From a virus, in IMG/VR virus record IMGVR_UViG_3300014962_000012, positions 1 to 32,142 of that record: a stretch of 32,142 bases of DNA; one strand, given 5' to 3'. The notes under the pieces are model-generated. The model had not been told where the DNA came from, made no database searches, and was given only the letters and a program-made list of their open reading frames with translations. This document shows, piece by piece, positions 1,633 to 27,065 of this stretch (its first letter is position 1; each line of letters starts with the position of its first letter). Position numbers and translations under genes: made by a program.

Positions 1633-1660
1633 ATTTTAGTTCGGCTCGTAAAGCTGTCAA
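1633..1660 (-). promoter_or_regulatory. leftward sigma70-type promoter P1
   Basis: Reading leftward: TTGACA (1660-1655), a 16-base spacer, then TAAAAT (1638-1633). It lies in the only gap of the early operon, about 30 bases before the gene starting at 1603. The sequence before and over the -35 (ACGTGAGAAATTTGACAG) is nearly identical to that of P2 at 2927-2954, with the same spacer length and the same -10. Confidence 0.7.
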
Positions 1661-2926: not shown

Positions 2927-2954
2927 ATTTTACTGCCCTCACAAGACTGTCAAA
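2927..2954 (-). promoter_or_regulatory. leftward sigma70-type promoter P2 of the early operon
   Basis: Reading leftward: perfect TTGACA (2954-2949), a 16-base spacer, then TAAAAT (2932-2927). The preceding bases, ACGTGAGAAG, repeat those at P1 (1633-1660). The first gene's TTG start follows about 30 bases downstream, with CCGATTGGAG between, a string that also appears downstream of P1. Confidence 0.72.
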
Positions 2955-3430: not shown

Positions 3431-3441
3431 CAAAAAAGCAC

Positions 3442-4317: not shown

Positions 4318-4335
4318 GAGATTCCAATCTAGTTT

Positions 4336-4365: not shown

Positions 4366-4463
4366 TAATTCGATAACTCTGTGGAATTGTCAAAATGCGA
4401 GCGCCAGTCATGCCACGCGAGAGCGAGTCAATCAGTCACACATGCACGATAACACAGGTCAGA

Positions 4464-4682: not shown

Positions 4683-4692
4683 ATGATATGGT
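4659..4692 (+). promoter_or_regulatory. rightward promoter of the structural arm
   Basis: TTTTCA (4659-4664), 17 bases, TATGAT (4682-4687), 11 bases before the first rightward ATG. An alternative -10, TGA-TATGGT (hexamer 4687-4692), lies exactly six bases before that ATG and matches the geometry seen at other late genes. A dyad, ATACT-G-AGTAT (4672-4682), overlaps the spacer and could be an operator. Confidence 0.5.
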
Positions 4693-4698
4693 GTGTTT

Positions 4699-4842
4699 AT
4701 GAATGCTATTGAGACTGAGTTGCGTAATGTTGAGTGGGAGCTTTATCTGCTTTATCGCGCGGGTGTTGTTGATGTTGAGCGTTTAGAGTTTTTGTGGTCT
4801 GAGGTGGACCGTTTGGATGCGGCGCTTGCGCTTGAGGAATGA
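4699..4842 (+). CDS. small helical hypothetical protein, first gene of the rightward arm (47 aa)
   Basis: The product begins MNAIETELRNVEWELYLLYR and ends LDAALALEE. It is leucine- and glutamate-rich and probably one or two helices, possibly a coiled coil. No ribosome site is seen before the ATG, in contrast to the genes behind it, fitting a leaderless or near-leaderless transcript. Its stop overlaps the next start by four bases. Position just before terminase is common for small packaging-associated or unknown proteins. Confidence 0.68.
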   Translation: MNAIETELRNVEWELYLLYRAGVVDVERLEFLWSEVDRLDAALALEE

Positions 4843-5039
4843 TGGCTTCGGGTATTTTTTTTAATTATTGGGGGGTTACCCACACGCTCGAGTTGGAGTT
4901 GTTTGAGGGTGGCTCTGTTTGGCGTGCGATTGTTGATGGTTCGCAGGTTGTGTTTTTTGAGGTGGAGGATGAGCTTGGCGCGAAGGAGTTGATGAATCGC
5001 GCTATTGATGCTTGGCTTGCGGAGGGTTTCAATGTCTGA
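4839..5039 (+). CDS. small hypothetical protein upstream of terminase (66 aa)
   Basis: The product begins MMASGIFFNYWGVTHTLELE and ends DAWLAEGFNV. A strand-rich first part leads into a C-terminal helix (DELGAKELMNRAIDAWLAEG). Either ATG 4839 (ATGA overlap with the preceding stop) or ATG 4842 (better spacing from GAGG at 4834-4837) could be the start. The stop overlaps the small-terminase start by 8 bases (ATGTCTGA). Family not recognised. Confidence 0.72.
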   Translation: MMASGIFFNYWGVTHTLELELFEGGSVWRAIVDGSQVVFFEVEDELGAKELMNRAIDAWLAEGFNV

Positions 5040-5553
5040 TGTTGAGCGGTCGCGTAGTGCGATGGATGCGAAGTTGTTGTCGTTGGCTCGTAAATCTCCG
5101 GCGGAGATTGCTGATGCGACGGGGTTGGATGCGCGGTTTGTTGCTGCACGGATTAGTGAGTTGCTTGAGTCTCGGGATTGGTTGTCGGATAGGCAGCAGG
5201 AGCGTCTTCTTTTGGAGGAAGTTGGGGAGTTGAAGGATTTGGTGATGGATGCTGTGCGTGCGTCGGGGGATGTGAAGGATTTTGCGGCGACGGCTTCGGT
5301 TGCTTTGCGTACGTTGAAGCTTGTGGGGGAGCGCCTGGATTCGCGTAGGAAACTTGTTGATGCGGATATTAATGAGATTACGGCGGCGCAGGCGAGGTTG
5401 TTTGGTAAGGCTTTTGATAAGGCGTTGACGCATGTGGTGGGGATGATGAAGGCTGTGGATGAGCTGCCGGATGATGCGGATGTTGATGCGTGGGTGGCTG
5501 ACGGTTTGAGGTTGGCGGCCAGGGAGCTGGATGCGCATGTCTCATCTGAGTGA
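5032..5553 (+). CDS. terS: terminase small subunit (DNA recognition for packaging)
   Basis: 173 residues from ATG 5032, with GGAGG upstream at good spacing. An N-terminal helix-turn-helix-like segment (KSPAEIADATGLDARFVAAR, about residues 21-40) is followed by a long helical region (EVGELKDLVMDAVRASGDVK, then LRTLKLVGERLDSRRKL) suited to ring oligomerisation, and an acidic C-terminus. Length, DNA-binding N-terminus and position directly before the large terminase agree with a small terminase, which selects the packaging start on phage DNA and recruits the motor. Sequence alone does not tell cos from pac packaging. The stop overlaps the start of the large subunit. Confidence 0.75.
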   Translation: MSDVERSRSAMDAKLLSLARKSPAEIADATGLDARFVAARISELLESRDWLSDRQQERLLLEEVGELKDLVMDAVRASGDVKDFAATASVALRTLKLVGERLDSRRKLVDADINEITAAQARLFGKAFDKALTHVVGMMKAVDELPDDADVDAWVADGLRLAARELDAHVSSE

Positions 5554-7093
5554 TGTTGTTGAGGGTGCGCTCGGTGATTTGCGGGAGCGTAGCCGTAGGC
5601 GTGTGTATGAGTCTGACCCGCAGGCGTGGCTGTCGGATGTTTTGGGGAAGCGTTGGTATTCGAGGCAGGAGGAGATTGTTGATGCTTTTTTGCGTAATCC
5701 TCGTATTGCTGTTAAGTCTGCGAATGGTTGTGGGAAGTCGGCTGTTGTTGCTGATTTGATTACGTGGCAGGTTGCGGTGTCGGACCCGCGTGAGACGTTG
5801 TGTATTGTTTCGGCTCCTACGTTGTCTCAGATTGAGAAAGTTATTTTCGCTTATTTGAAGGTGAATAAGTCTGCGGCTGCGTTGGCTGGGTTGGATTTGC
5901 CGGGGCGTATTACGGAGACTCTGGCGTGGAAGTTGGATGGCGACCAGGGCAGCGAGTTTCTTGTGTTTGGTAAACGCCCGTCGGATAGGGATATTGTTTC
6001 GAGCTTTCAGGGTACGAGGAAGTTGCGTACGATGGTGTTTCTTGATGAGGCTGGTGGTTTGCCTGCGGAAATGTTTACGGCTGCGGAGGCTGTGGCGACG
6101 GGTGCTGATTCGAGGATTCTTGCTATTGGAAACCCTGACCGTCGTGGTACGGAGTTTCATAAGATTTTTACGGACCCGAAGATTGCGCAGGATTGGGACT
6201 TGCATACGATTTCTGCTTTTGATTTGCCGACGTTTACGGGCGAGCAGGTTTATGAGGATGAGGTTAAGCAGGCTAACTTGTTGGGCGGGTTGACGAGTGT
6301 TGACTGGGTGGAACATAAGCAGCGCGCTTGGGGTGTAGATTCTGCACGTTATAAGGCTAAGGTGTTGGGTGAGTTTCCTGACGAAGCGGATAATACTTTC
6401 TTTTCACAAGAGATTATTGACCGTGCTATTGAATGTGAGATTGAGGAAGATGACTCTATACGACCTATTCTTGGGGTTGACATCGCTCGCTTTGGTTCTG
6501 ACGAGAACCGGATGTATATCAATCGGGGCGGTAGAGTTCGTTTGTATGATGATGGCTCTGATGATTCTGGGGCTTGGAGCAAAACGGATTTGATTACGAC
6601 GGCACGTAAGGTTCATGCGGCTGCGCAGCGTGTCGGCGCTAGGCTTGTGAATGTTGACGTTAACGGTGTCGGTGGTGGTGTTGTTGATGCTCTTGTTACG
6701 TTGGAGGAGTTCCGTGATTCGGTATATGATATTGGCGCTATTGCTGGTAGCAACGCTTCTCCCGATAATCTTCGCTGGTTTAATGCTCGCGCTTGGCATT
6801 ACGATACGTTGAGGGAGTTAATGGCTGAAGGTAAACTTGACCTTGACTATGATGATGCTGGGCTGAGGGAACAACTTGTTACACAGACATATAAGTTTAG
6901 TGCAAAGGGTGCTATTCAGATTACGTCTAAGGATGATATGAAGAAGATGGGTTTATCTTCACCTGACTCGTTGGATGCTGCGATTCTTTCTGTCATCGAT
7001 TTCAAAGATGCTGATGGACCGCAGCCTGGTGACGTTATTGAGTATCAGTTTGACGAATTAAATCATCCTTTCTATTCTGAATCTTTTTGGTAA
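5531..7093 (+). CDS. terL: terminase large subunit (packaging ATPase and nuclease)
   Basis: 520 residues. The ATPase domain has Walker A SANGCGKS (about 63-70), preceded by SRQEEIVDAFLRNP, and Walker B MVFLDEA (about 168-174). APTLSQIEKV and ILAIGNPDRRGTEF fit the coupling region. The C-terminal RNase-H-like nuclease shows ILGVDIARFGSDENRMYI (about 313-330), VNVDVNGVGGGVVDAL (about 373-388) and a late SPDSLDAAILS, supplying the metal-binding aspartates. The enzyme pumps DNA through the portal and cuts it. Two in-frame ATGs (5531, 5537) are possible; 5531 is four bases and 5537 ten bases after GGAG. It overlaps the small subunit gene and is followed by a T-rich gap. Confidence 0.96.
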   Translation: MRMSHLSDVVEGALGDLRERSRRRVYESDPQAWLSDVLGKRWYSRQEEIVDAFLRNPRIAVKSANGCGKSAVVADLITWQVAVSDPRETLCIVSAPTLSQIEKVIFAYLKVNKSAAALAGLDLPGRITETLAWKLDGDQGSEFLVFGKRPSDRDIVSSFQGTRKLRTMVFLDEAGGLPAEMFTAAEAVATGADSRILAIGNPDRRGTEFHKIFTDPKIAQDWDLHTISAFDLPTFTGEQVYEDEVKQANLLGGLTSVDWVEHKQRAWGVDSARYKAKVLGEFPDEADNTFFSQEIIDRAIECEIEEDDSIRPILGVDIARFGSDENRMYINRGGRVRLYDDGSDDSGAWSKTDLITTARKVHAAAQRVGARLVNVDVNGVGGGVVDALVTLEEFRDSVYDIGAIAGSNASPDNLRWFNARAWHYDTLRELMAEGKLDLDYDDAGLREQLVTQTYKFSAKGAIQITSKDDMKKMGLSSPDSLDAAILSVIDFKDADGPQPGDVIEYQFDELNHPFYSESFW

Positions 7094-7171
7094 TTCTTTT
7101 TTTATTTTTATTTATTTATTTATTTTAAAATTTTTTTAATTATTTTTTTCTTTTCCTGCTAAACTTTTAAT
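7094..7171 (+). promoter_or_regulatory. T-rich tract and extended -10 promoter before portal
   Basis: A pyrimidine and A/T tract of about 60 bases, almost without G, follows the TerL stop. It ends in TGC-TAAACT (hexamer 7160-7165), six bases before the portal ATG. There is no ribosome site. The tract could act as an UP-type upstream element; it has no hairpin, so it is not an intrinsic terminator. Confidence 0.55.
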
Positions 7172-8665
7172 ATGGCTAAACAGATTGCAGGACAGACTTC
7201 ACGTATGCGCTCACTCAGTGAGGAGGTGCAGCGTCTTGGCGCAGAGAATGAACGTCTCGCCGAGAACTATGCTGCGGTTGCGCGGGCCACTCTCGAGTTC
7301 GATGAGGTGGGTTGGTCTCCTGTTAACCAGCTGAAGGAGCAGGGTGTTTCGCTGGAGAATGCGAAACTTATTTCTAGTAATGCGCGCACGCAGATGAACA
7401 ATAATGCGTTGCTGAAGCGTGGTGCTGCACTGCGGGCCAGCTACGTTTTTGGGCGTGGCTTCAAGATGGCTTCTGCCGGTAAGCCGCTGCCACCACGTTT
7501 CCAAGATATTATTGACAACCCGATTAATCAGCAGGTGTTGTTTGGTGAGGCCGCATGTAAGAAGAACGAGAAAACCCTGTTCGCTACAGGTAACTTCTTC
7601 GTGCGCTATGACAAGGCGAATAAGACGTGGGGCCGCATCCCCTTGGATGAGATTGTCGGCTGGTCTGTAGATAAAGATGACCCGGAGATTGTGAAATATA
7701 TTCTCCGCGAATATGAGCGTGTTGTTTCCGTTGATGCTTCAGGTAACCAGAAGACAGAGACGGTTAAGGTTTGGTATCCGATGGATTACACGACCAGCCC
7801 GAATACTTCTATTGCTGGTGTGCGCGTTGACCGTAACTTTGTTGTCGTTGACCACCGCGAGAATGATGACACTGGTTCCATCTGGGGTTTGCCTGACTGT
7901 CTTCCAGCGCTGCCGTGGGCGTGGGCTTACAGCGAGTACCTGAAGGATGGTACGAAAATGTTGAAAGCTTTGTCGAGTATTGCTTGGCAGGTTAAGTCGA
8001 AAACTTCTAAGGGCGCTAATAATGCGAGCGCAAAGCTGGTTAACAACCGCCAGGTTGCGGCTACCGCTGTTACGGGTACTGATGTTGAGCTTGCAGCTAT
8101 GCCACGCAATAATGCTGTCGACTTGGGTACTGGTCGCCCGCTTGCCGCTATGGCTGCGAGCGCGATGGAGGTTAGCGTTGATGCGCTTCTTTCGGGTACC
8201 GGCACGACAGCTGCTGGTTCGCAGATTCTTGACCAGTCAACCTTGAATGCTGCTTATGGTCGCCAAGGCAACTGGGAGGCTTTTTATACTCGCGTGTTGC
8301 GTGTGATGGGTGTACAGAATCCTAGCGTCAAGTTTAATGCCATTACTGTTGACCCGACGTATCGCAACGTTCAGTCACTTGGTCAGGCATGGCAGACTGG
8401 TCTGTTTGACCCGAGTGTTATTCAGGCTGCTTATGCTGAACAAATTGGTATTGAAGCTCCGGGCATGATTCCCGATGGTGTGCTTCTTCCCAACAATGAA
8501 AACAGCATTAAAGGTCAGGGTGCTAATGTTACAGCGACACCGGGCAATGATATGAATGCGCAACAGACTAACGTTGCAACTTCGCAGGGTAATTCTGGCG
8601 CTGGTGTCGGTGATTTGACGAACAGCGATAATACTCTGCGCGATATTCAAAATTTGCCCCAATAG
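7172..8665 (+). CDS. portal protein
   Basis: 497 residues beginning MAKQIAGQTSRMRSLSEEVQ. ALLKRGAALRASYVFGRGFK (about residues 79-98) is typical of phage portals near the start of the core, followed by ATGNFFVRYD and strand-rich stem sequence. VSVDALLSGTGTTAAGSQIL (about 333-352) and YGRQGNWEAFYTRVLRVMG fit the wing and long helices lining the channel. Twelve copies form the vertex channel that docks the terminase and later the connectors. No Shine-Dalgarno site precedes the ATG, and a -10-like hexamer is six bases upstream. A Gln/Asn-rich tail ends the protein. Confidence 0.87.
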   Translation: MAKQIAGQTSRMRSLSEEVQRLGAENERLAENYAAVARATLEFDEVGWSPVNQLKEQGVSLENAKLISSNARTQMNNNALLKRGAALRASYVFGRGFKMASAGKPLPPRFQDIIDNPINQQVLFGEAACKKNEKTLFATGNFFVRYDKANKTWGRIPLDEIVGWSVDKDDPEIVKYILREYERVVSVDASGNQKTETVKVWYPMDYTTSPNTSIAGVRVDRNFVVVDHRENDDTGSIWGLPDCLPALPWAWAYSEYLKDGTKMLKALSSIAWQVKSKTSKGANNASAKLVNNRQVAATAVTGTDVELAAMPRNNAVDLGTGRPLAAMAASAMEVSVDALLSGTGTTAAGSQILDQSTLNAAYGRQGNWEAFYTRVLRVMGVQNPSVKFNAITVDPTYRNVQSLGQAWQTGLFDPSVIQAAYAEQIGIEAPGMIPDGVLLPNNENSIKGQGANVTATPGNDMNAQQTNVATSQGNSGAGVGDLTNSDNTLRDIQNLPQ

Positions 8666-8684
8666 TATAACACCGTTTTTTCTC

Positions 8685-8693
8685 TGGTATTAT
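8685..8693 (+). promoter_or_regulatory. extended -10 promoter before the protease gene
   Basis: TGG-TATTAT, with the hexamer at 8688-8693, ends seven bases before ATG 8701. The gap after the portal stop is only 35 bases, with no ribosome site. This is one of six similar sites. Confidence 0.5.
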
Positions 8694-8700
8694 TATTTAT

Positions 8701-9636
8701 ATGTCTACTGTATTTACTGAGGCTGCTGTCGCGCCTACAAAAACAGATAAAGGCACTTGGCGCGCAATCCTAATCACGCCAGGTAAGGGTTCCTCTGGAA
8801 TCTATTCCGAGTCTATGCTTAAAGAGTTTGGTCCGGTCGCCTTCCCGAAGGGTACACATTCTTATGTTGACCATCCGGTCACCGAGGGTGAGATTCGTAG
8901 CCCGAAGAATCTTATGGGTGTTCTCGCTGAGGATGCGCACTATGAGGATGGTCTTGGCCTTGTTGCCGAGCTTCAGGTTATGCCTCACTGGAAAGAGTTC
9001 GTAGAGGCCGTTGCACCGCATACTGGTCTCTCGATTTACGCGATGGGCGAAGGGTCGCGTAATGACGATGGTGACATCGTTGTAGAATCCCTCGTGCCGA
9101 ACACGCAGAACTCTGTTGACCTTGTATCTTATGCCGGTCGACCTGGTTCTGGTTTGGCTGAAAAACTGTACGAATCTGCGCTTGCCGCTCAGATGTCGGA
9201 CAATGGTACTGCTGTGGAAACAGCCGCAGCAACCATCCACAATGAAGAAGAAGGAAACTCTAACATGGATGAAATCAAGGCCATGCTTGAGGCAATGAAC
9301 GAGGCTATTGAGGCTAAGTTTGCTGCTCTTGCTGAAACCCTTTCGCCTGCCGAGGAGCCTGAAGAGAAGGAAGAAGTTGACGTTGCGGCTGTTGCTGAGG
9401 CGCTTGTCAATGCCGACCTTCCCGAGGTTTCGCGTAAGGCTGTCTACGAGTCGCTTCGTAATGGTGGAGACCTTGCTGAGGCCATCGAGAGCCAGAAGGC
9501 TTTCGTTGAGTCCATCAAGACTCACCTGCAGGAGACTGCAGTTGCACCCGCCGCTGCTGAAGAGACCGTTGTTACCCACACCACAGAGGCTAAGCCTAGC
9601 CTTGCCGGTATTCTCAACGTTAAGGTTGGTAAATAA
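8701..9636 (+). CDS. capsid maturation protease with C-terminal scaffold domain
   Basis: 311 residues. The N-terminal half has THSYVDHPVTEGEIRS (about 52-67), then PHTGLSIYAMGEG (serine about 111) and NSVDLVSYAGRPGSG. This His, GLS and SVDxV order is that of herpes-assemblin-like prohead proteases. Residues about 160 to 311 are acidic, Ala/Glu-rich and helical (NMDEIKAMLEAMNEAIEAKF), like a scaffolding protein, and end in a basic VKVGK patch that could bind the capsid protein. It cleaves scaffold and capsid precursors during shell maturation. An in-frame internal start at 9265 may produce the scaffold alone. It lies between portal and decoration protein, as expected. Confidence 0.82.
   Translation: MSTVFTEAAVAPTKTDKGTWRAILITPGKGSSGIYSESMLKEFGPVAFPKGTHSYVDHPVTEGEIRSPKNLMGVLAEDAHYEDGLGLVAELQVMPHWKEFVEAVAPHTGLSIYAMGEGSRNDDGDIVVESLVPNTQNSVDLVSYAGRPGSGLAEKLYESALAAQMSDNGTAVETAAATIHNEEEGNSNMDEIKAMLEAMNEAIEAKFAALAETLSPAEEPEEKEEVDVAAVAEALVNADLPEVSRKAVYESLRNGGDLAEAIESQKAFVESIKTHLQETAVAPAAAEETVVTHTTEAKPSLAGILNVKVGK
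9265..9636 (+). CDS. possible internal-start scaffolding protein (in frame within protease gene)
   Basis: ATG 9265 begins MDEIKAMLEAMNEAIEAKFA and is preceded by AAGAAGGAAAC, a purine-rich site ending about eight bases before it. The product (123 residues) would be exactly the acidic coiled-coil scaffold half of the protease-scaffold gene. Nested scaffold genes in this position are known from lambda (C and Nu3). The ribosome site lies in codons for Glu-Glu-Gly-Asn, so it could be chance in acidic coding sequence. Confidence 0.45.
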   Translation: MDEIKAMLEAMNEAIEAKFAALAETLSPAEEPEEKEEVDVAAVAEALVNADLPEVSRKAVYESLRNGGDLAEAIESQKAFVESIKTHLQETAVAPAAAEETVVTHTTEAKPSLAGILNVKVGK

Positions 9637-9638
9637 TA

Positions 9639-9983
9639 ATGGCTATTAATGAAGTTTTCAAAGAGGCTGACAGCCTTGACTACGCCGTTAACTCGGCTGT
9701 AGTTGCTGGCAACTTCGTTGTCATCGGCGGCATCGTTGGTGTTGCTGAGACAAGCGCAAAGGTCGCTACCGATGGTAGCTACTATGCTACACTCCGTCAC
9801 AAGGGTGTCTTCACAGGAACCACCTCGGAAGCTGTTTCCGTTGGTGACGCAATCTACCTCGCATCTGCCGCTACCTACGGTACTGCTCTTACGAAGACTA
9901 GCTCGGGCAACAAGCTCGTTGGCTACGCTGTTCGTGCCAAGGGCGCTACTGCTGGTGCTGTGCATGTTCGCATCAACAACTAG
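9639..9983 (+). CDS. capsid decoration/cement protein, DUF2190-like
   Basis: 114 residues beginning MAINEVFKEADSLDYAVNSA. It is beta-rich with NFVVIGGIVGVAETSA (about 26-41), GVFTGTTSEAVSVGDAIYLA (about 57-76) and KLVGYAVRAKGATAGAVHVR at the end. The pattern (Val-rich start, GVF, SVGDxxY, G-A-xHV end) is that of DUF2190-type head proteins, which trimerise on capsid surfaces and stabilise them. It starts two bases after the protease stop and precedes the major capsid gene. The ribosome site is weak (GGTTGG), so coupling to the preceding gene is likely. Confidence 0.75.
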   Translation: MAINEVFKEADSLDYAVNSAVVAGNFVVIGGIVGVAETSAKVATDGSYYATLRHKGVFTGTTSEAVSVGDAIYLASAATYGTALTKTSSGNKLVGYAVRAKGATAGAVHVRINN

Positions 9984-10001
9984 GAATAGGTGAGTTCAAT
10001 A

Positions 10002-11120
10002 ATGGACAAGATTCAACTTGTAGAGCGTGAAATCGCTCGCATCGAGGAGAACGCCACCAAGCGTCAGATTGAGGCCGCTAAGCTTCTGTCCGAGGCTCTT
10101 GCTGGTGATATTCGCGCTAGGGTTATGCTTCAGGAAGGCATCTCTTCGAGCGACATTCCTACACTCCTCCAGCCTGCAATCAACGTTACGTTCCTCGCCC
10201 AGTATGCTGCACAGCCTACCGTGTGGAACCAGATTGCTCAGGAATACACTGTCAACGACTTCGGTACAATCAAGTTCGGTGACTTCCAGATTGACCCCAG
10301 CTCGCTCACCGCTGCTAATGGCGAAGAGTACATTGCTGGTGGCCTTCCGGTTGTTGGCGAATACGACGAGTACCCCGCAGTCAAGTTCAGCACTTCGGAG
10401 ACAGACAAGTCCATCGACAAGAAGCGCGGTGTTCGCGCTCGCCTGTCGTGGGAGTCGCTGCGTCGCACGGGTGACTTCGACATCCTGGGTCGCTTCACTG
10501 AGGCTTTCGCTCAGTACGCTGCTCAGCAGGAAGACATCGCTCTTGCTTCGCTGTTCGTAACATCCGCTGGTGCTGTTGGTTCTGCCTTCAGTGGCAAGCA
10601 GCTCACATCGAACGACCCCATCTCGCTCACCACACTTGACGAGGCTCTTGCCCAGTCGCGTGAGGCTCGCGTTAACGGTCGCCCGATTGGTGCTTCTAGC
10701 TACAAGCTTGTTTACGGTTCGGGCCTTGCCACAACCGTCAACAACCTGATGAGCATCCAGACCATCCGCAAGACTGACGGTAACGGTACATACGACATCA
10801 ACGCCAACGTGACAACTGGTCCGTTCCGCCCGATTGAGTTCCCGACACTGGACACAGTTTCTGGTTCAACAACCGACGCATGGTGGTTCGTTATTCCCGA
10901 GACCACGGTTCGCCCGCAGTTCCTCGAGGTGTTCCTTAACGGTGAGCGTAGCCCGCTTATCTCCATCAAGGACTCGGGTCACATGTCGCTTGCTGGTGGC
11001 GAGGTTCCCGTACGCGAAGGTTCGTTCGACGAGGATGACATTCAGACTCGCGTTCGTCACATCGTTGAGGCTGTTAACGTCACAAACGATGGCTTCGTTT
11101 ACTCGACAGCTGCTGGCTAA
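10002..11120 (+). CDS. major capsid protein, HK97 fold
   Basis: 372 residues from ATG 10002, with AGGTGAG seven bases upstream; a GTG at 9990 is less well spaced. An N-terminal charged helical region (KIQLVEREIARIEENATKRQ, about 3-22) resembles a delta domain that is usually cleaved. The body includes YDEYPAVKFSTSETDKSIDK, RARLSWESLRRTGDFDILGR and QYAAQQEDIALASLFVTSAG, typical of the spine-helix region of actinobacteriophage capsid proteins. The C-terminal half has RSPLISIKDSGHMSLAGGEV. Codon use is richer in C than in the tail genes, consistent with high expression. A terminator follows 23 bases after the stop. Confidence 0.88.
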   Translation: MDKIQLVEREIARIEENATKRQIEAAKLLSEALAGDIRARVMLQEGISSSDIPTLLQPAINVTFLAQYAAQPTVWNQIAQEYTVNDFGTIKFGDFQIDPSSLTAANGEEYIAGGLPVVGEYDEYPAVKFSTSETDKSIDKKRGVRARLSWESLRRTGDFDILGRFTEAFAQYAAQQEDIALASLFVTSAGAVGSAFSGKQLTSNDPISLTTLDEALAQSREARVNGRPIGASSYKLVYGSGLATTVNNLMSIQTIRKTDGNGTYDINANVTTGPFRPIEFPTLDTVSGSTTDAWWFVIPETTVRPQFLEVFLNGERSPLISIKDSGHMSLAGGEVPVREGSFDEDDIQTRVRHIVEAVNVTNDGFVYSTAAG

Positions 11121-11143
11121 TAAGCTAGATTCAAATAGGAAGG

Positions 11144-11168
11144 CCCCCTCTTTGGAGGGGGTTTTCTT
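11144..11168 (+). terminator. rho-independent terminator after the capsid gene
   Basis: CCCCCTC (11144-11150), loop TTTG, GAGGGGG (11155-11161), then TTTTCTT. It ends the head-gene unit. The -10-like TGT-TAGGAT of the next gene begins immediately after it. Confidence 0.88.
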
Positions 11169-11169
11169 A

Positions 11170-11178
11170 TGTTAGGAT
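11170..11178 (+). promoter_or_regulatory. extended -10 promoter of the small CH-motif gene
   Basis: TGT-TAGGAT, with the hexamer at 11173-11178, ends six bases before ATG 11185 and lies just behind the T-run of the capsid terminator. No ribosome site is present between, so a transcript from it would begin at or near the start codon. Confidence 0.55.
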
Positions 11179-11184
11179 AAATAT

Positions 11185-11385
11185 ATGGAAATCAAGCTTC
11201 AAGAGTTTTATATCCGCAAGGATGCTCCAGGCTGCAAGGGCGGCTGGGCTACCGTTGATGATAAAGGTAAAGTTATTACCTGTCATGAGACTAAGGACCA
11301 AGCAATCAAGCATATGGTTGCCGCATCTATTGGAGCAGGAGAGCAGCCCGGTGGAGACTGGGCGCATCGTAAGCGTAAGAAATAA
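11185..11385 (+). CDS. small basic protein with GWxxVdxxGkvxxCHxTkxqA motif (66 aa)
   Basis: The product begins MEIKLQEFYIRKDAPGCKGG; the core GWATVDDKGKVITCHETKDQ is followed by AIKHMVAASIGAGEQPGG, and the end is HRKRKK. I recall short domains of the type Gly-Trp-xVV-Gly-CH-T-A near head genes of several phages, sometimes fused to proteases or portals. Their role is not established. The basic tail could touch DNA or the acidic capsid interior. It stands alone between a terminator and a structured intergenic RNA region, with its own -10 site, so it may be a one-gene transcript. Confidence 0.75.
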   Translation: MEIKLQEFYIRKDAPGCKGGWATVDDKGKVITCHETKDQAIKHMVAASIGAGEQPGGDWAHRKRKK

Positions 11386-11389
11386 CCTG

Positions 11390-11395
11390 TAAAAT
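11390..11395 (+). promoter_or_regulatory. -10-like hexamer for a possible small RNA
   Basis: TAAAAT ends six bases before the first base of the double hairpin at 11402. An overlapping TAGAAT (11395-11400) is an alternative. The geometry equals that of the leaderless genes, here pointing at a hairpin instead of an ATG. Confidence 0.4.
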
Positions 11396-11401
11396 AGAAT
11401 T

Positions 11402-11473
11402 GCGTGGTCCTCCTCCAATCCCGCCACGCTGCCCCCGTGTTGTTGAGATGTTTTATTCCTCCGGCACGGGGGC
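11402..11473 (+). ncRNA. candidate structured small RNA: two tandem hairpins with CCUCC loops
   Basis: Hairpin 1: GCGTGG (11402-11407) and CCACGC (11424-11429), 16-base loop containing TCCTCCTCC. Hairpin 2: GCCCCCGTG (11431-11439) and CACGGGGGC (11465-11473), 25-base loop containing ATTCCTCCGG. The stems are perfect and separated by one base. Both loops expose CCUCC, complementary to Shine-Dalgarno sequences. No reading frame of note covers the segment. There is no U-run after hairpin 2, so the RNA may instead be the 5' part of a longer connector-gene message or a processed leader. Alternatively the second stem is a weak terminator. Confidence 0.45.
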
Positions 11474-11487
11474 TTCACTATGTGCGG

Positions 11488-11493
11488 TAGAAT
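11488..11493 (+). promoter_or_regulatory. -10 promoter of the connector operon
   Basis: TAGAAT ends six bases before ATG 11500. The intervening AGGATT contains an AGGA only two bases from the ATG, too close for a normal ribosome site. No convincing -35 is visible. Confidence 0.5.
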
Positions 11494-11499
11494 AGGATT

Positions 11500-11895
11500 A
11501 TGGCAAATTTAGGCGTTGTACCAGTAGACCTCGGTAGTAACATTGGTCGTGTTCGTGTATTGATTAATGATACGAATGCATCTAATGTCACTGGAACAAC
11601 TGGTGAGTATCTTTATTTTAGTGACCAGGAAATTGAATCAATCCTCACTATGTATAGCAACAATCCTAAAGCAGCCGCCGCTCAGGCATTAGAAACTATT
11701 GCAAGTTCACAGGTTCTTCTTTTAAAATCTTGGTCATCTGATGACCTTACGGTTCGTGGTGACGCTATTGCTGAAGCTCTGCGCAAGCTTGCAGACCAAT
11801 TGCGCAAAGAGGCAATTTCTGATGACTCTAATGATTTCTATGATTTGATTCAAACAATTGATGCTGATGACCCCGCGGAGACATGGTGGAATTAG
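11500..11895 (+). CDS. head-tail connector (adaptor) protein
   Basis: 131 residues beginning MANLGVVPVDLGSNIGRVRV. RVRVLINDTNASN leads into YLYFSDQEIESILTMYSNNP and KAAAAQALETIASSQVLLLK, then LRKLADQLRKEA and a C-terminal WWN. This order (short N-terminal arm, FSDxEIxxxL, helical bundle with AxALExIA) is characteristic of gp6/gp15-type adaptors that dock under the portal in siphophages. It is the first gene of the connector group, and its product likely forms a dodecameric ring. Family call from pattern and position. Confidence 0.7.
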   Translation: MANLGVVPVDLGSNIGRVRVLINDTNASNVTGTTGEYLYFSDQEIESILTMYSNNPKAAAAQALETIASSQVLLLKSWSSDDLTVRGDAIAEALRKLADQLRKEAISDDSNDFYDLIQTIDADDPAETWWN

Positions 11896-11896
11896 C

Positions 11897-12637
11897 GTGG
11901 GAATTTCTAATCAGCCGATAGACTTTGTAGCCATTGGTGCAGAGATGGCTAAAACGGCACTGCCGTGGATGAATGCTTCTATTCAAATTGTTGACCCAAA
12001 TACTGGTGACGCTGTTTGGGATGAATGGACAAATACAGAAACCGGTGGGGAGCCAACTGTTATATGGTCTGGTCCTGCTCGTATTCAACATCTTGGTGGC
12101 GAGTCTATTGCCGGTGCTGGCTTTACCGAGGTTGGTATTCGTAGCATTCGTGTTCAGATTCCGCTTGACGAATCTGCTGGATTTATTCGCAAAGGATTAC
12201 AGATTATTGTAACCGATGGTGGTAATGATTATGAACTCGAGCAACTGCAGTTTATCATTACATCAGCAGTTAATTCAAGTTATGCCTGGGTGCGCACGAT
12301 AGAGGCTGAGGTTGATGTTAAGTCAATAGCCAACTCTACATGGTCTGGTATTGCTGGTAATGTTACAGATGCAACATCTCCGATTGTTAATGCAACGGTA
12401 CGCACCTTCCACCACGAAGACGATATTTGGATTATGGATTATGAAACAACAACAGATGCGCTCGGAAATTATGAACTTCCTGCAGACGCAGGTGTACCCA
12501 TCACTGTCGTTGTTGTTGCCAGCGGTTATGCCACTAGCTATTATGATGGTGCTGCTAGTTTTGAATTCGCATCAACTGTAACCCCAGTAAATCATATTGA
12601 AACACAAAACATTAATTTTGTTTTGGATGTAGCATAA
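11897..12637 (+). CDS. head closure-type protein with C-terminal carboxypeptidase-regulatory-like domain
   Basis: 246 residues from GTG 11897, with GGTGGA six bases upstream; a longer frame from 11858 overlaps the adaptor gene without a better site. Residues 1 to about 150 (IQIVDPNTGDAVWDEWTNTE, then TVIWSGPARIQHLGG, and QIPLDESAGFIRKGLQIIVT) look like a beta-barrel head-closure protein. From about 158 on, GIAGNVTDATSPIVNATVRT, a WIMDYETTTDALGNYELPAD stretch and VVASGYATSYYDG give the G-V-x-pI-x-A-TV, TTDxxGNYxL, xGY series of carboxypeptidase-D regulatory-like beta-sandwich domains. Such decorations often face outward and may bind sugars. The stop shares one base with the next start. Confidence 0.62.
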   Translation: MGISNQPIDFVAIGAEMAKTALPWMNASIQIVDPNTGDAVWDEWTNTETGGEPTVIWSGPARIQHLGGESIAGAGFTEVGIRSIRVQIPLDESAGFIRKGLQIIVTDGGNDYELEQLQFIITSAVNSSYAWVRTIEAEVDVKSIANSTWSGIAGNVTDATSPIVNATVRTFHHEDDIWIMDYETTTDALGNYELPADAGVPITVVVVASGYATSYYDGAASFEFASTVTPVNHIETQNINFVLDVA

Positions 12638-13197
12638 TGGCTAAGGCTCTAAAATGGCAGGCTGATTTTTCTGAGTTTAATAAAAAAATTCAGAAACTTC
12701 CAATTGCCGTAGACGATGGCGCATCATCTGGTATGGAGTATTCTGGTAAAGCTGCAGCAAATGAAATGCGTAGACTTATTGGAATCCGTGGTTCATTCGG
12801 TTCAAGTAAGCGCTATGCTGGAGAATATTTAGCTGCAGGATTTGGTCCGGGAAATAGTGCTGGTCGTGATAATACTGGAGCCATGATAAACTCAGTTGAT
12901 TTTAATATTATCAATGGCAAGAACGGATTCCGCCTACAGGTTGGATATCTTAATGGTGCTGAAAAATATTTCAAAGCACAAGAGTATGGTTTCGATAACC
13001 ACGGTATTTGGATTCCTCAATATGTAAATAAAAAAGGCGAGACGCATGGTGGATATTTTATTAATGCACCATATCCCGTAAGGTGGACTGAAGGTATTTT
13101 TGCGTTACGTGATTCACTTAGTCTGTTTGAGAAAGTTTCTCCAGGTCTTATTGCTGCGCAAATTTCTAATAACTTAAAGGTTAAAGGATTAGTATGA
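12637..13197 (+). CDS. HK97 gp10-like neck/tail-completion protein
   Basis: 186 residues beginning MAKALKWQADFSEFNKKIQK. The N-terminal helix is followed by EYSGKAAANEMRRLIGIRGS, a GNSAGRDNTGAMINSVDFNI turn and YFKAQEYGFDNHGIW, then a helical C-terminus. Many gp10-like proteins share the first helix, a T-G-x-L/M-xxSi strand and an aExG motif; here TGAMINSVD and AQEYG stand for these. Position between head closure and tail terminator agrees. The call is from pattern and gene order. Confidence 0.6.
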   Translation: MAKALKWQADFSEFNKKIQKLPIAVDDGASSGMEYSGKAAANEMRRLIGIRGSFGSSKRYAGEYLAAGFGPGNSAGRDNTGAMINSVDFNIINGKNGFRLQVGYLNGAEKYFKAQEYGFDNHGIWIPQYVNKKGETHGGYFINAPYPVRWTEGIFALRDSLSLFEKVSPGLIAAQISNNLKVKGLV

Positions 13198-13652
13198 GTG
13201 GTTTAAATCTTATTACAGTGCAAGAAATAATTGCAGCATATGTTCGTCAAGAGTTTCCAGCATATGAAGTTTATGAAGATGATATTTTAGATAATGAGTC
13301 ATTGCTACGTACTAACAATAAAGTTAAACCATATATTGTTTTGCGCTGGGGTGGACTCATGCGTGACGGTCGTGGCACTTCTTTTGCTGGTGTACGACTT
13401 GATGAATATGTATCAAATGTTGATGTCAATGTTGTTGCTCCAACCCCAACACAATGTCGCAAGGCAATGAATATTATTCTAGATAAACTTATTGGATGGA
13501 AGCCAACCGGTGGTGGGGCGCTAACACCAGAGGGCGGTGCTGGATTGTTTGTTGTCAATAATCGTGAAGATAAACCACACCTATATATTGCATCTGGTCG
13601 TTTAACTTTTGCAGTAAACTCTGAAGACCCAGGCGCGTATATTACACCATAA
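13194..13652 (+). CDS. tail terminator protein
   Basis: 152 residues beginning MSGLNLITVQEIIAAYVRQE. VKPYIVLRWGGLMRDG and VSNVDVNVVAPTPTQCRKAM, followed by NIILDKLIGW, form the alternating strand-helix pattern of gpU/gp17-type tail terminators, which cap the tail tube as a hexamer and join the neck. It starts with a four-base overlap (ATGA) and has AGGA five bases upstream. It is the last of the connector unit; the next gene has its own -10 site. Confidence 0.68.
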   Translation: MSGLNLITVQEIIAAYVRQEFPAYEVYEDDILDNESLLRTNNKVKPYIVLRWGGLMRDGRGTSFAGVRLDEYVSNVDVNVVAPTPTQCRKAMNIILDKLIGWKPTGGGALTPEGGAGLFVVNNREDKPHLYIASGRLTFAVNSEDPGAYITP

Positions 13653-13659
13653 ACTACGG

Positions 13660-13665
13660 TATACT
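13660..13665 (+). promoter_or_regulatory. -10 promoter of the tail-tube operon
   Basis: TATACT, six bases (TGAATC) before ATG 13672, in a 19-base gap without a ribosome site. It is the closest of the group to the TATAAT consensus. Confidence 0.55.
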
Positions 13666-13671
13666 TGAATC

Positions 13672-13938
13672 ATGGTACTTGCACGAAATACTATCTCCGG
13701 GCAGATTGCCGACGTTTCTCCCAAGCTTCTTGAACACCCAAAGTTCAAAGATGTTCTTGAGGTTGTAGACGAAGGCGCGAAGCCTTATGTTGCCGAACTG
13801 TATAAGTCGGGAACAGTCCAGGAAAAGGCTGCTGGCAAATCTAAGAAATCCAAAGCTAAGGCTGAGGTCATTATAGAGGAGCCTGTGGTTGAAGATGAAG
13901 TTACCGAAATCTACCCTGAAATTGAGGAAGAAAACTAA
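13672..13938 (+). CDS. small acidic-tailed protein before the tail-tube genes (88 aa)
   Basis: The product begins MVLARNTISGQIADVSPKLL, then EHPKFKDVLEVVDEGAKPYV, a Lys-rich linker (KAAGKSKKSKAK) and a very acidic end (EEPVVEDEVTEIYPEIEEEN). The basic-acidic layout suggests a flexible tail. I recall short proteins with an SPxLLxHPxFxxxLxxV start next to tail genes in other phages, with no known role. No ribosome site; its ATG follows a -10-like TATACT. The stop shares one base with the next start. Confidence 0.75.
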   Translation: MVLARNTISGQIADVSPKLLEHPKFKDVLEVVDEGAKPYVAELYKSGTVQEKAAGKSKKSKAKAEVIIEEPVVEDEVTEIYPEIEEEN

Positions 13939-15208: not shown

Positions 15209-15235
15209 TCATATCCCGACAAGGATGACGAGAGG

Positions 15236-15256
15236 CCCCGCTACGGCGGGGTTTTT
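15236..15256 (+). terminator. rho-independent terminator after the tail-tube genes
   Basis: CCCCGC (15236-15241), loop TACG, GCGGGG (15246-15251), then TTTTT and a further T-rich stretch. It separates the highly expressed tube genes from the chaperones. Confidence 0.9.
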
Positions 15257-15262
15257 CGTTTT

Positions 15263-15273
15263 TATGATAGGAT
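15263..15273 (+). promoter_or_regulatory. -10 site(s) of the tail-chaperone operon
   Basis: Overlapping hexamers TATGAT (15263-15268) and TAGGAT (15268-15273) directly follow the terminator. The ATG at 15300 lies 26-31 bases on and has GGAGGA, so this unit makes a normal leadered message, unlike the group with six-base spacing. Confidence 0.45.
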
Positions 15274-15299
15274 ATTGACGAACCCTAATGGAGGAATAA

Positions 15300-15920
15300 A
15301 TGTCTGATATTGAAAAAGAAGTTATGGATATTGTAGAGGAAGCCAAAGCCCCTGGAACGTTTAATATTCTTGACGTACTCAAAGGAACTGCAAGACCAAA
15401 AGATAATGTAGAAGTTTATCTTGACGAAGAGACGGCATATGAGGCAGCTAATCTAAAAATTAAACTTTCTCAAACAGATTCACAAGATTCAGAGTATGCT
15501 GTTATTGAAAAAAAACTTGATGCTCTTGTAAAAAAACTTAATGAGAGCAAATATACTTTTGTTATTTCTGGAATAACAGAAGGTCGTCGGGAAGAAATTT
15601 ATAGTCAAGTTGAAGAAAAATTTCCAATTGAATATGAAGAAATTGTAAATCCTTTTACAAACGAAAAAACTAAAGAAGAAAAAGAAAACAAAGAGCGCGA
15701 CCGTCTTTTTACTTCGCTTCTTTGGGTTGAGCAAATTTCTAAAATTATTTCTCCAGATGGAGCAGAACAAACTAATCTAACACTGAAAGATGTTAGTGCG
15801 CTTCGCGCCACGCTTCCGATTGCTGCTAGTGGTTTTATTAATCAAGCAATTGAAAAGGTCCGCGCAGCTACTGCAATGTTTATGATTTCGGTGGATGAAG
15901 ATTTTTTAGCCAAGTCCTAA
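15300..15920 (+). CDS. tail assembly chaperone (short, zero-frame product)
   Basis: 206 residues beginning MSDIEKEVMDIVEEAKAPGT. It is acidic and helical, with a Lys/Glu-rich stretch (TNEKTKEEKENKERDRLF) and a C-terminal helical half (LFTSLLWVEQISKIISPDGA). It is the gpG-like chaperone that coats the tape measure during tail assembly. Position directly before the tape measure and a slippery TTTTTTA twelve bases before its stop codon are diagnostic. It has GGAGGA upstream of the ATG. The gene is markedly A-rich compared with the tube genes. Confidence 0.82.
   Translation: MSDIEKEVMDIVEEAKAPGTFNILDVLKGTARPKDNVEVYLDEETAYEAANLKIKLSQTDSQDSEYAVIEKKLDALVKKLNESKYTFVISGITEGRREEIYSQVEEKFPIEYEEIVNPFTNEKTKEEKENKERDRLFTSLLWVEQISKIISPDGAEQTNLTLKDVSALRATLPIAASGFINQAIEKVRAATAMFMISVDEDFLAKS
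15902..15908 (+). promoter_or_regulatory. -1 ribosomal frameshift slippery site
   Basis: In the chaperone frame the codons read GAT TTT TTA GCC, so the heptamer is T TTT TTA, a perfect X XXY YYZ site. The zero-frame stop comes three sense codons later, while the -1 frame is open to 16369. Confidence 0.85.
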
Positions 15921-16379: not shown

Positions 16380-16385
16380 TAGAAT
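16380..16385 (+). promoter_or_regulatory. -10-like site before the tape measure gene
   Basis: TAGAAT begins 11 bases after the chaperone stop and 35 bases before the GTG start. With a start about seven bases downstream it would give a leader of about 23 bases carrying TTGGAGC. Confidence 0.4.
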
Positions 16386-16414
16386 ATATTTAGTACCCTT
16401 TTATTGGAGCTTTT

Positions 16415-19400
16415 GTGGCGAACGAAGATATTAAATTTTCAGTATCACTTGATACATCACAGTTTATGCGTGGTGTTCAGAATGTTCAAGCTGAAGCTGG
16501 TCGTCTAGAAAAACTTATTAATTCAGGAAAGTTTAATCCTGAACTCAAATGGAACATATCTACCAAAGACGCACTTAGCCAACTTAATGCTTTAAAAAAG
16601 GCTAACAATGTCACAATGGCGGATATTGCCGCAGAAAATGTTGCGCAAGCAAAAAGAATTAACAACCGCTCTGCCGAGTTGTGGCTCGAAGGGGAGCAAC
16701 AAAAAACTGATTTTGCTTTAGGTGAAGCGCAGAAGCGTAATGCTGGCGAGATTAAATTCTCTGAGGATGCGCGCAAAAAAGAACTAGCTGGCATGCGCGC
16801 CTCAATGACGGAGACTGCGCGTATTGAAGATGAAAAACTTAAGTTCTATCAAGAACGTAATCTTAAAAGAAATCAACTTGATGAAACATTACGTCAAGCT
16901 GAACTTAAAGCAATGCGCGAAACAATGCAGGCGCAATGGGTTCCAGAACAAAAGTTAAATCTTCCATCACTTCGATACGCTCTTTATGATGTCGCAGAAT
17001 CTTTTCAACAAGTTTCAGCAGCAACGCTTGGCCTTGTTACTTCTGCTACACAAGTTGCTGCATCATATGAAACTGCGTTTACACAAATTGAACGCACCAC
17101 AATGGCACAAGGTCCAATGCTTGATTCTCTCAAGCGTCAATTTCTTGAGCTTGCCCGCACGATTCCGCTTGCATTTCAAGACCTAACACAGATTGGTTCG
17201 CTTGGCGCACAGATGGGTATTGCCGAGGGTGACCTTGCCGGTTTTACAAAAACTGTTGCTGAGTTCTCTGCAACAACAGACGTATCAATTCAGCGAGCAG
17301 CAGAAGATTTTGGTACTCTTGGTAATCTTCTTGACATTGTTCCATCTAAGTATGCAAATCTTGGTTCAGCCATTCTTTATGTTGGTTATAATTCTGCTGC
17401 CACTGAAACACAAATCCTTTCTGTAACAACAGCCATTTCAGCTATTGCCAAACAGGCTGGCCTTAGCGAAGATTATATTATTGGCCTATCTGGCGCACTT
17501 GCCTCGCTAAAGGTTCCAGCAGAACAATCACGCGGCGCGCTAACACGTACATTCCAGGAAATTAACCGCGCCGCTGCAACAGGTCAGAACATGAATAACT
17601 TTGCAGCTATTCTTGGCACAACAACAGAGGAAGCTCAGCGCCTTGCTTCTGTTGATATGGAAACTTTCTTTAATAAATTCATTGCTGGTCTTAGCGGGAT
17701 GGATACCCAGCAACTAACCCTAGCGCTTGATGCCCTTAATCTTTCTGATATCCGTGTAACGAACACGCTTACACGTCTTTCACAGAATCTTAATCTTACT
17801 AAAGATGCTATTGATAATGCTACGTATGCGTTTGATAATGCTGGAATTATTTCAGAAGTTTATGGCAAGAAGCTTGATGACATTGCTTCAAAATTCCAGA
17901 TTCTTCAAAACTCTGTGCAAGAATTTACGGCGCAGTTTGGTCAGGCAATGCTCCCAGTTCTTGGACCGGTACTTGATACGCTTTCTCAAATGGTTCAGCG
18001 ACTATCAGATGCGCTTTCAACTGATTCTGGAAAAATGTTTAGTGGCGTTCTGGCTGGGCTGCTTGCCGTTGTTGGTGCAGTGGCATCAACACTTTCCTCA
18101 ATTACGCTTCTTGGTGCTGCTTTTGCTGCTTTACAATTTGCTACAAAAACTCTCGGTATTGAATTAAGTACAACTGGATTCCGTGGTTTTATTGCTGGCC
18201 TAGTTGCAACAAAGGGAGCTACCGACGCGGCGGCTGGTTCCATGTCTAGGGCGGCTATTGCCGGAGCAAGACTTAATGCTGTTCTTAAGTTCTCTATGAT
18301 TGGTCTTGCTATTTCGGCAATTGCCACGCTTGATGCAGCGTTGAAAAGTTCTGCCGATAATACTGATATTGCGTTCCAGTCGTATGTTTCAAATACTTCT
18401 GGTCTTGCTGATGCTATTGCAGCGGATACAATTGCGCTTTCTGATGCTATGGCTTCTGGTAATCAGCAAATTATTGATAGTTCTTATACATTCCAGGCAG
18501 CGCAAGAATCAAATAAACAAGCTCTTAATGATATGGCGCGAGCTGCATTAAATGTTAATGAAGCATTTGGGGGAACTTCTCCAGAATTAGATAAGACGGC
18601 ATCATCATTTAATAATCTTACATACGCCATTGGTGATAATACTCTTGCATGGTTGCGTAACCAGCTTATTGCTAATGATGAATTTAAAAAATTGTTTATG
18701 GATAGTGATATATCTAATGCAATTTTAAATAATGCAATTGATATGAAGTATGCTCTTGCCATTGCCACGGCTGGTACTGAACAAGATGTAATGAATTATT
18801 TTTACAACCAAATGAGTGCTGTAAGGGAAGGCGGCGCACAAACTATTGGGACATGGGAATATGTACTTGAAGCCATTAGGGCCGTTATTATAAATATTCC
18901 TATTATTGGCCCAATGCTTGATGGTCTGATTCCAAAAACACTTATTGGCAAGTTGCGTGAAACTGCTCAAATGATTGAGGGTACTGCTTCACAAATGCAA
19001 CTTGTTGCTGGTAGTGCAGATGACGCGACGCAGGCAACTGAAGGATTTGGCGGCGCTATGGATGGCGCTGGAAAATCTGCTGGAAAGGCTGCAGATAAAC
19101 TTAGAACTCTTCTCGACTATGCACAAGACCTTGCATCTATTTGGGATAGGGCCTTGGATATTAGATTCTCTGGAATCCAAGGTTTAGATGCTATAACAAA
19201 ATCATTTAGTAGTATTGCTAAATCTACTGCTGATGCTCGTGAGGAAATTAATTCACTTAATGCTGATATCCAATCACTTACCTCTGACCGTGCGCTTCAA
19301 GAATATTTCTTACAAGTTGCGGAAGCTTATGGTGATACGCTTTCAGCATCTAAGGCTCGAGCAAATATTGCAAAGATTGATGCAGAACTTGCAAAGAAAA

Positions 19401-25199: not shown

Positions 25200-25229
25200 T
25201 GATATAGAATTATAATTTAGGAGTATACT

Positions 25230-27065
25230 GTGACGCAGCCAGCCAATCGGCGTTTCGTTATGGAAGACCGCGTGCCATTTGATGCGGCTGAAGTTCAGGG
25301 TACTCTCCCAACTGGCGGTACTGCAGGTCAAATTTTATCTAAGATTGACGGCACAAACTATAACACAACATGGATTGATAACTTTGCTCCGAACGTAGAA
25401 CTCTATGTAAAGAACCAGTCCGGTTCAGCTATGACTAAAGGTCAGGTTGTCTATGTTGCTGGTGTAGATAACGCTGGTGATACTCCGCGTGTTGCTTTGG
25501 CTGACGCTGATGCCGAGGCTACATCCTCGAAAACTATTGGTCGCTTGAAGCAGGACCTTGCCGATGGGGCTTTCGGTTATGTTGTAACCGAGGGTATCAT
25601 CGAGGGTTTGAATACTGCTGCCGCCACTGCCGGTCAATCTATCTGGCTTTCTGGTACTGCTGGTGGTGTTGTATATGGCGCTCCTCCTGCAAAGCCTGCG
25701 CACAGCGTATATCTTGGTGTTGTTATTCGTGCGCAAACGAATAACGGAAAAGTTTATGTTAAAGTTCAAAATGGTTTTGAAATCAATGAACTACATGATG
25801 TAAATATTGATTCTGGTACGCTTGCTGGTGGACAGGTTATTAAATATAATGCTAGTTCATCAATGTGGGTTAATGGTGCTGCCGCTGGTGGAGTTACCGC
25901 TAATGATACCGCACCAAGTTTGTCTACTGCAGCGGCTGGTGATGCATGGTTTGATACTAATGATGGAACGCTTTATGTTTGCTACGTTGATGTTGATAGC
26001 ACGAAACAGTGGGTTCAAGTTCAAGCCAATTCTGCGCTTGAGGGTTCTATCCTTTCGCGCCTTTCGTCACTCGAGGGTAGCGCGGCTGCGTTTGGTAATT
26101 TAAGTCCGAACTATTTTATTAATGCTGATATGTCTATTTGGCAGAGGGGAACTTCTGTCACGCTTGGAGCGTCACAGCCGTTTGGTGCCGACCGCTGGCG
26201 TTATACAACTAATCGCTATGGTCCAGCGGGTATGGTTATTTCTCAGCAGACATTTACGCCTGGTTCTTATCCCGTTCCTGGGGTTCAGTCTTATGCTAGA
26301 TTTTATCAATCATCATATAATTATGATGCAGGAGATTATTCTGAAATTGCTCAGCGCATTGAAGATGTAACTTTGTTTGCTGGTAAAACTATTACAGTTT
26401 CCTTTTGGGCAAATTATCCAGCAGCAAGTCGCAACATTAACGTTGTTATGTCTTATGGAAATGTTACTGGTGTTACCGGGACAACTAATACTCTAACTTC
26501 GTCTACTGGCTGGACAAAATATACAACCTCATTTACTGTCTCTAGTTTTTCTGGCGCTACTATTTCAGCAAATAATTATCTTGAAATTGGTATTCGCTAT
26601 TTTGCCCCAGCTGCGGCAACTGTGACCATAGATATGACTGCACTCCAACTTGAGGTTGGTAATACTGCAACAGCATTCCGTCGTAATCAGTCAAATAAGC
26701 AGGCCGAACTTGCTGCATGTCAGCGGTATTATTGGCGCACAACAGCAACGGCAGCAAATACTGTTCCAGTTATTGGTATGGGTACTGCATCTACAACAAC
26801 TACAATATCTTTCCAAATACCTTTTCCAGTTGAAATGCGTGATGTTCCAACATCATATGATTGGACTGGCACACTTTCTAATTATCAATGGGCGCAGGTT
26901 GGTTTAAGCTCTGGAGCATTGGCTACAACAAACCCAACTATCGGCACATCATCAACTAAAATGCTTGGCCTTAACTGTACCTCAACTGGATTAACAGCTT
27001 CATACGCATATCACTTTAGGCTCGGTGCGGCTGGTGTATATTTCGGAGTTAGTGCGGAGCTGTAA
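25230..27065 (+). CDS. tail fibre/minor tail protein with QRGTS-type carbohydrate-binding-like module
   Basis: 611 residues from GTG 25230, with GGAG six bases upstream. In order: a short N-terminal part with LPTGGTAGQILSKIDGTNYN; a beta domain (ELYVKNQSGSAMTKGQVVYV) seen in other fibre proteins; a linker unit (AGDAWFDTNDGTLYVCYVDV); and from about 290 the module LSPNYFINADMSIWQRGTSV, then FGADRWRYTT, SQQTFTPGSYPVPGV, a KTITVSFWANYP strand and QAELAACQRYYWRT. Module and linker recur in the gene at 27229. The QRGTS module is frequent in phage fibres and is thought to be a jelly-roll. Likely role: host recognition. Confidence 0.7.
   Translation: MTQPANRRFVMEDRVPFDAAEVQGTLPTGGTAGQILSKIDGTNYNTTWIDNFAPNVELYVKNQSGSAMTKGQVVYVAGVDNAGDTPRVALADADAEATSSKTIGRLKQDLADGAFGYVVTEGIIEGLNTAAATAGQSIWLSGTAGGVVYGAPPAKPAHSVYLGVVIRAQTNNGKVYVKVQNGFEINELHDVNIDSGTLAGGQVIKYNASSSMWVNGAAAGGVTANDTAPSLSTAAAGDAWFDTNDGTLYVCYVDVDSTKQWVQVQANSALEGSILSRLSSLEGSAAAFGNLSPNYFINADMSIWQRGTSVTLGASQPFGADRWRYTTNRYGPAGMVISQQTFTPGSYPVPGVQSYARFYQSSYNYDAGDYSEIAQRIEDVTLFAGKTITVSFWANYPAASRNINVVMSYGNVTGVTGTTNTLTSSTGWTKYTTSFTVSSFSGATISANNYLEIGIRYFAPAAATVTIDMTALQLEVGNTATAFRRNQSNKQAELAACQRYYWRTTATAANTVPVIGMGTASTTTTISFQIPFPVEMRDVPTSYDWTGTLSNYQWAQVGLSSGALATTNPTIGTSSTKMLGLNCTSTGLTASYAYHFRLGAAGVYFGVSAEL

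Follow-up and report, generated by a model that had tools for sequence, protein, structure and literature searches.

Predicted leaderless promoters ahead of structural-gene units in a siphovirus-like phage and its relatives

The rightward genes of the virus record IMGVR_UViG_3300014962_000012 raise the question of how a phage gene is started when a -10-like hexamer lies only 6 or 7 bases before its ATG. The stretch analyzed here (the window) comprises bases 1-32142 of this 51,985-base record, and the remainder was examined as locus L016. The rightward region carries genes for the terminase, portal, protease, decoration, major capsid, connector, tail tube, chaperone, and tape measure proteins and thus represents the structural genes of a siphovirus-like phage; from this content, the rightward units would be expressed late. 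All six TANNNT motifs described in an earlier note on this DNA were located where it had placed them, and TGn preceded four of the hexamers (TGA, TGC, TGG, and TGT), as it had said, the remaining two being preceded by CGG. The data suggest that these genes very probably yield leaderless mRNAs, made by a host sigma-70-type polymerase from promoters that lack a -35 element and often have an extended -10. The predicted sites are as follows.

4684..4701, plus strand: TGA-TATGGT-N6-ATG, hexamer 4687-4692; predicted leaderless promoter and start of the first rightward gene, 4699
7157..7174, plus strand: TGC-TAAACT-N6-ATG, hexamer 7160-7165; predicted leaderless promoter of the portal gene (7172-8665)
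8685..8703, plus strand: TGG-TATTAT-N7-ATG, hexamer 8688-8693, spacer 7; predicted leaderless promoter of the head maturation protease gene (8701-9636)
11146..11187, plus strand: hairpin terminator (11146-11161), then TGT-TAGGAT-N6-ATG, hexamer 11173-11178; predicted terminator-promoter-start cassette of gene 11185
11431..11502, plus strand: GCCCCCGTG/CACGGGGGC hairpin (11431-11473), then TAGAAT-N6-ATG, hexamer 11488-11493; predicted leaderless promoter of gene 11500
13660..13674, plus strand: TATACT-N6-ATG, hexamer 13660-13665; predicted leaderless promoter of gene 13672 (88 aa)

Association of the motif with unit-leading genes

Chance alone would place roughly a dozen copies of the bare pattern TANNNT-N6/7-ATG on either single strand of the region (an estimate from 1/4096 per position and spacer), so only a position at a gene start and conservation carry weight. 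In the window, the motif was found at 6/13 leading starts, compared with 1.1 expected under a first-order model, and at 1/17 internal starts. A motif search of related phage genomes, as proposed in the earlier note, was performed on the late regions of the window and of 15 annotated phages with matching portals (16 in total), which were chosen regardless of the motif. TANNNT lay 6 bases ahead of 22/123 leading vs 2/123 internal starts and 7 bases ahead of 12/123 vs 2/123, so that spacers of 6 or 7 were present at 34/123 unit-leading and only 4/123 internal starts (P = 7e-8); the other spacings in the histogram were at background, with counts of 0-6. The effect was clearest in the GC-rich Microbacterium phages, five of which had 3-5 sites each against a chance expectation of about 0.1-0.2 per genome. 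Collection-wide scans of viral contigs for TGNTAGAAT-N6-ATGGCT with an N9 control were dropped as an enrichment test, partly because a motif that contains TAG skews the check for in-frame stops.

The arrangement was also conserved. Ten relatives found by terminase similarity had the hexamer 6-7 bases before the same genes, with differing flanking DNA and gap lengths. For an out-of-sample set, 23 dereplicated loci were picked by portal similarity alone, and their start codons were set by homology and the nearest in-frame ATG while the motif was ignored. In these new relatives, TANNNT-N6/7 preceded the portal gene in 19/19, the protease gene in 20/21, the homologue of gene 11500 in 12/12, that of gene 13672 in 8/9 (the ninth having a spacer of 5), and terS in 6/9. 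The pooled count for these genes was 65/70, compared with 1/79 for the internal genes (terL, decoration, capsid, 11897, 13194, and both tail tube genes), a difference with a Fisher P of about 5e-35 that overstates independence because the rows are related. The contrast between gene classes lies inside the same genomes, and relatedness does not explain it. Altogether, the sites were conserved in more than 30 related contigs and several isolate phages, and they were present in isolate phages of Microbacterium and Clavibacter whose portal identity is about 30-49%; the isolate collection contained no near-identical phage.

Individual sites differed in detail. The counterpart of gene 4699 in relatives L003 and L004 had TAGGGT-N6-ATG; in the window, a TATGAT overlaps the hexamer 11 bases before the ATG, and L003 retains only TAGGGT with spacer 6. 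The 11185 site at first seemed to be confined to the window, but L004, L010, and L011 have the same hairpin and TGTTAGGAT-N6/7-ATG before a longer homologue, and therefore all six sites are conserved. Compared with those homologues, the window gene (11185-11385) has lost about 100 N-terminal residues, and the cassette has nonetheless been kept. In L005 (1522-1539) and most other relatives, the TGGTAAGAT of the portal promoter is formed by the last Trp codon (TGG) of the terminase gene and its stop TAA; in the window, a 95% A+T stretch (7094-7155) lies between the terminase gene end and the portal gene, which appears to be served by a new TGCTAAACT.

Promoter anatomy and the two promoter classes

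Over 60 collected sites, the consensus was TG(N)TA(G/A)(A/G)AT, with TAGAAT as the hexamer consensus; only the hexamer and the TG region were conserved, and the spacer bases varied. A TTG at 16-18 bases upstream was present in 0/60 sites, compared with a shuffle mean of 4.0, in agreement with the absence of a clear -35 in the earlier note. All 60 start codons were ATG or GTG, which was not imposed for the 34 annotated or open-reading-frame-listed starts, while ATG was required for the relatives. The hexamer holds an in-frame TAA or TAG at most N6 sites, and starts further upstream are therefore excluded there. In L018 (18309 and 19958), L024 (8839), and L017 (9927), the deposited start codons fall on the -10 hexamer or pass over the leaderless ATG, and these deposited starts are probably wrong.

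Pairing with the anti-Shine-Dalgarno sequence averaged -3.8 kcal/mol at motif starts, -5.8 at other leading starts, and -6.9 at internal starts. It was weaker at motif starts than at internal genes (P = 5e-9), which bears out the contrast with internal Shine-Dalgarno sites drawn earlier, and also weaker than at the other leading genes (P = 0.001). The classes could not be told apart by a simple Shine-Dalgarno substring score (P = 0.17), whereas hybridization energy separated them. Among the window sites, 7172 had no pairing (+1.4 kcal/mol), and 4699 was the least clear (-5.3). Upstream hairpins were only modestly enriched, with a strong excess at 26% vs 3% of internal starts (P = 0.012). A generic scan for terminators gave about as many hits as shuffled sequence did (13 vs 12.9), and terminators are therefore cited at individual sites only.

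The suggestion that a whole late program is built on leaderless messages was too strong for the rightward region, where the program is mixed: genes 15300, 16415, and 25230 have a -10 further upstream, a leader, and a GGAG. The tail assembly chaperone gene 15300 belongs to this leadered rightward class and was leadered in relatives too. Leftward units formed a further contrast, having TTGACA-N15/16-TAAAAT (minus-strand 2953 and 1660; chance mean 0.06). The contrasting features are listed here.

15227..15302, plus strand: terminator hairpin, TGA-TAGGAT (15265-15273), leader with GGAGG, tail assembly chaperone gene 15300
16380..16417, plus strand: TAGAAT (16380-16385), leader and GGAG, tape measure gene 16415
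25205..25232, plus strand: TAGAAT (25205-25210), short leader and GGAG, gene 25230
2927..2953, minus strand: leftward promoter TTGACA-N15-TAAAAT with leader
1633..1660, minus strand: leftward promoter TTGACA-N16-TAAAAT, leader, purine-rich site before ATG

Relative L003 had nine TTGACA-N18 promoters with leaders, and L004 had at least three TTGACA-N16 promoters. Since leftward units with a perfect TTGACA and leaders occur in the same genomes as the -35-less sites, two promoter classes coexist in one genome. The nine L003 copies (4100-8240, minus strand) are TTGACA-N18-TATAAT-like, most with a near-identical spacer ending in GTGTGTC; their leader bears TCGGCACCGAGTCGGC or a variant, and the array resembles a repeated early regulon.

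Other features were observed in the window. DnaA-box-like TTATCCACA sites clustered at window 4476-4644, right before the first rightward gene, giving an oriC-type look; a similar cluster was present at the same place in L004 and absent from L003 and L006. Between leftward units, window 3000-3480 was AT-rich; it contained both direct and inverted repeats, and clear genes were few. A probable tail fiber with long collagen-like GxxGxxG repeats occupied window 30150-32142 and beyond. An Rfam search of the window found no RNA families.

Leaderless transcription, the polymerase, and competing explanations

The fixed 6-7 spacing, the conservation, the lack of a -35, the weak or absent Shine-Dalgarno sites, and the ATG/GTG starts support the leaderless interpretation first put forward in the earlier note. 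Each of the six genes would head a transcription unit with a -10 hexamer TANNNT, often with an upstream TGn and with no -35, and the position of the hexamer would set the RNA start at, or within about one base of, the A of ATG. Translation of the leaderless mRNAs would then depend on ribosomes able to use a 5'-terminal AUG, as is common in actinobacteria, and the downstream genes in each unit would be translated via normal Shine-Dalgarno sites. In several places, a terminator would close the preceding unit just ahead of the promoter, which would create a compact terminator-promoter-ATG cassette.

Some points weigh against this interpretation or narrow it. Searchable papers contained no mapped 5' ends for this phage or its relatives, and read-through from upstream units could still yield leadered copies of some genes. 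TGn was present in only 31/60 sites, so the extended -10 is not universal. The portal-related actinophages Kela, BV-113, LuckyBarnes, TripleJ, and Yappy had none of the sites, which indicates a trait of one phage group and not of all actinophages.

The sequence evidence points to an actinobacterial host because of a WhiB domain, portal matches to phages of Microbacteriaceae (Microbacterium and Clavibacter), and relatives binned in a Microbacteriaceae metagenome-assembled genome; the binned portal relatives numbered two, and the binning of a viral contig gives only a weak indication of its host. Pan2 (L024) and Jojan60 (L025), with a cyanobacterium and Stenotrophomonas as their listed hosts, carried leaderless sites and WhiB-like sequences, and their recorded hosts therefore deserve a check.

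Most likely, these promoters would be read by the RNA polymerase of the host, carrying its primary sigma factor. Between the two options raised earlier, a host sigma factor acting on -10-only promoters is favored, because no Sigma70_r2 or Sigma70_r4 match over the cut-off was found in 26 records, a search that could miss divergent sigma factors; a phage-modified polymerase is retained as a less favored rival. A Jojan60 protein annotated "RNA polymerase sigma-H factor" had no Pfam or PHROG family match and only weak, unrelated NCBIfam ones.

A phage-made factor might instead re-target the host polymerase late in infection to -35-less promoters. The candidate would be a WhiB-domain protein that binds sigma region 4, as WhiB proteins bind region 4 of sigma-A. 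The leftward arm encodes a 259-aa protein (record 44800-45579; L016:12658-13437, minus strand) whose N-terminal half contains cysteine clusters and whose C-terminal WhiB domain has a GVWGG motif, and WhiB domains were also found in relatives G002, G003, and G005 and in Anansi, LeeroyJenkins, and Jojan60. The perfect -35 boxes at leftward promoters, compared with none at rightward ones, would fit such a factor. Against it, the Microbacterium phages Jacko, Lyell, ISF9, PhillyPhilly, and Wolfstar had leaderless sites without a WhiB match, and actinobacterial primary-sigma promoters are often weak in the -35 anyway. Because of these five phages, the WhiB-driven model is left as a rival only, and we consider it unlikely. 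Somewhat less probable still is a two-class switch, in which the leftward units would use TTGACA and leaders, and a later phage factor, with the WhiB-domain protein as its candidate, would free the polymerase from the -35, thereby activating the leaderless structural promoters and favoring their translation.

It is very improbable that the motif is an AT-rich feature of start regions or a chance occurrence, with translation from read-through leadered mRNA without Shine-Dalgarno help. AT-rich DNA ahead of the window genes does raise the number of chance matches, to the expected 1.1/13, but the spacing peak occurred only at 6-7 bases and was equally sharp in phages of 60-65% GC (expectation about 0.1-0.2 per genome), the fixed bases were TG, TA, and the final T, and terminators lay upstream in several cases. 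Equally doubtful is the proposal that the real translation starts lie downstream of the ATGs, giving transcripts with ordinary leaders: some isolate annotations do put starts elsewhere, but protein similarity extends to residue 1 for the homologues of gene 11500, gene 13672, and the protease, and the ATGs conserved at 6-7 bases from the hexamer are these same ones.

Significance and comparison with known systems

In the usual picture, the late genes of a phage form long operons with leaders, transcribed from a single late promoter or a handful of them. In this group, a leaderless promoter would stand at the start of each of several head and tail units, an arrangement conserved even though the portals share only about 30% identity. 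The group is a ready test case for the competition of leaderless mRNAs for ribosomes in actinobacteria when expression is high, and for the way in which a phage that has no sigma factor of its own keeps early and late promoters apart. The sites also allow gene starts to be corrected in deposited genomes that have annotated start codons on the -10 itself, and they supply a simple rule for locating true starts in this phage group. No report of a conserved leaderless late program was found in open-access papers, subscription journals being mostly outside the search. Provisionally, the conserved set of leaderless structural units is new, while leaderless actinobacterial genes and single predicted phage cases are already known.

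In mycobacteria, leaderless genes with ATG or GTG starts and a proximal -10 occur widely and are translated efficiently (Shell et al. 2015, PMC4633059), and CTG and TTG fail as leaderless starts (PMC4633059). The sites described here resemble those genes in having a -10 near the start, RTG as the first codon, and no Shine-Dalgarno sequence; they differ in that those are host genes and these form a conserved set of phage structural-gene units. A passage of PMC4633059 names the coliphages lambda and P2 as precedents for leaderless phage genes; unlike in this phage group, few genes are involved, in a host with inefficient leaderless translation. The start-associated sequences of cluster K mycobacteriophages are likewise short repeated motifs just ahead of start codons, but they are 13 bp long, lie 3-9 bp from the start, have a conservation that includes and exceeds the ribosome site, and are presumed to be translational, whereas the motif in this phage is a -10 hexamer that lacks a ribosome site and has flanks of varying sequence and thus is not of that kind. 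Adephagia, another mycobacteriophage, has a predicted leaderless P90 (PMC11373665), also a phage transcript, but one that serves a toxin-antitoxin gene and not a structural-gene program. Cluster O mycobacteriophages such as Corndog have the predicted leaderless SigA promoters PL1, PR2, and PL2 (PMC4351075), which are single promoters picked via a sigma-70 site search with -35 scoring, whereas here about five structural units have -35-less promoters, and their conservation was tested.

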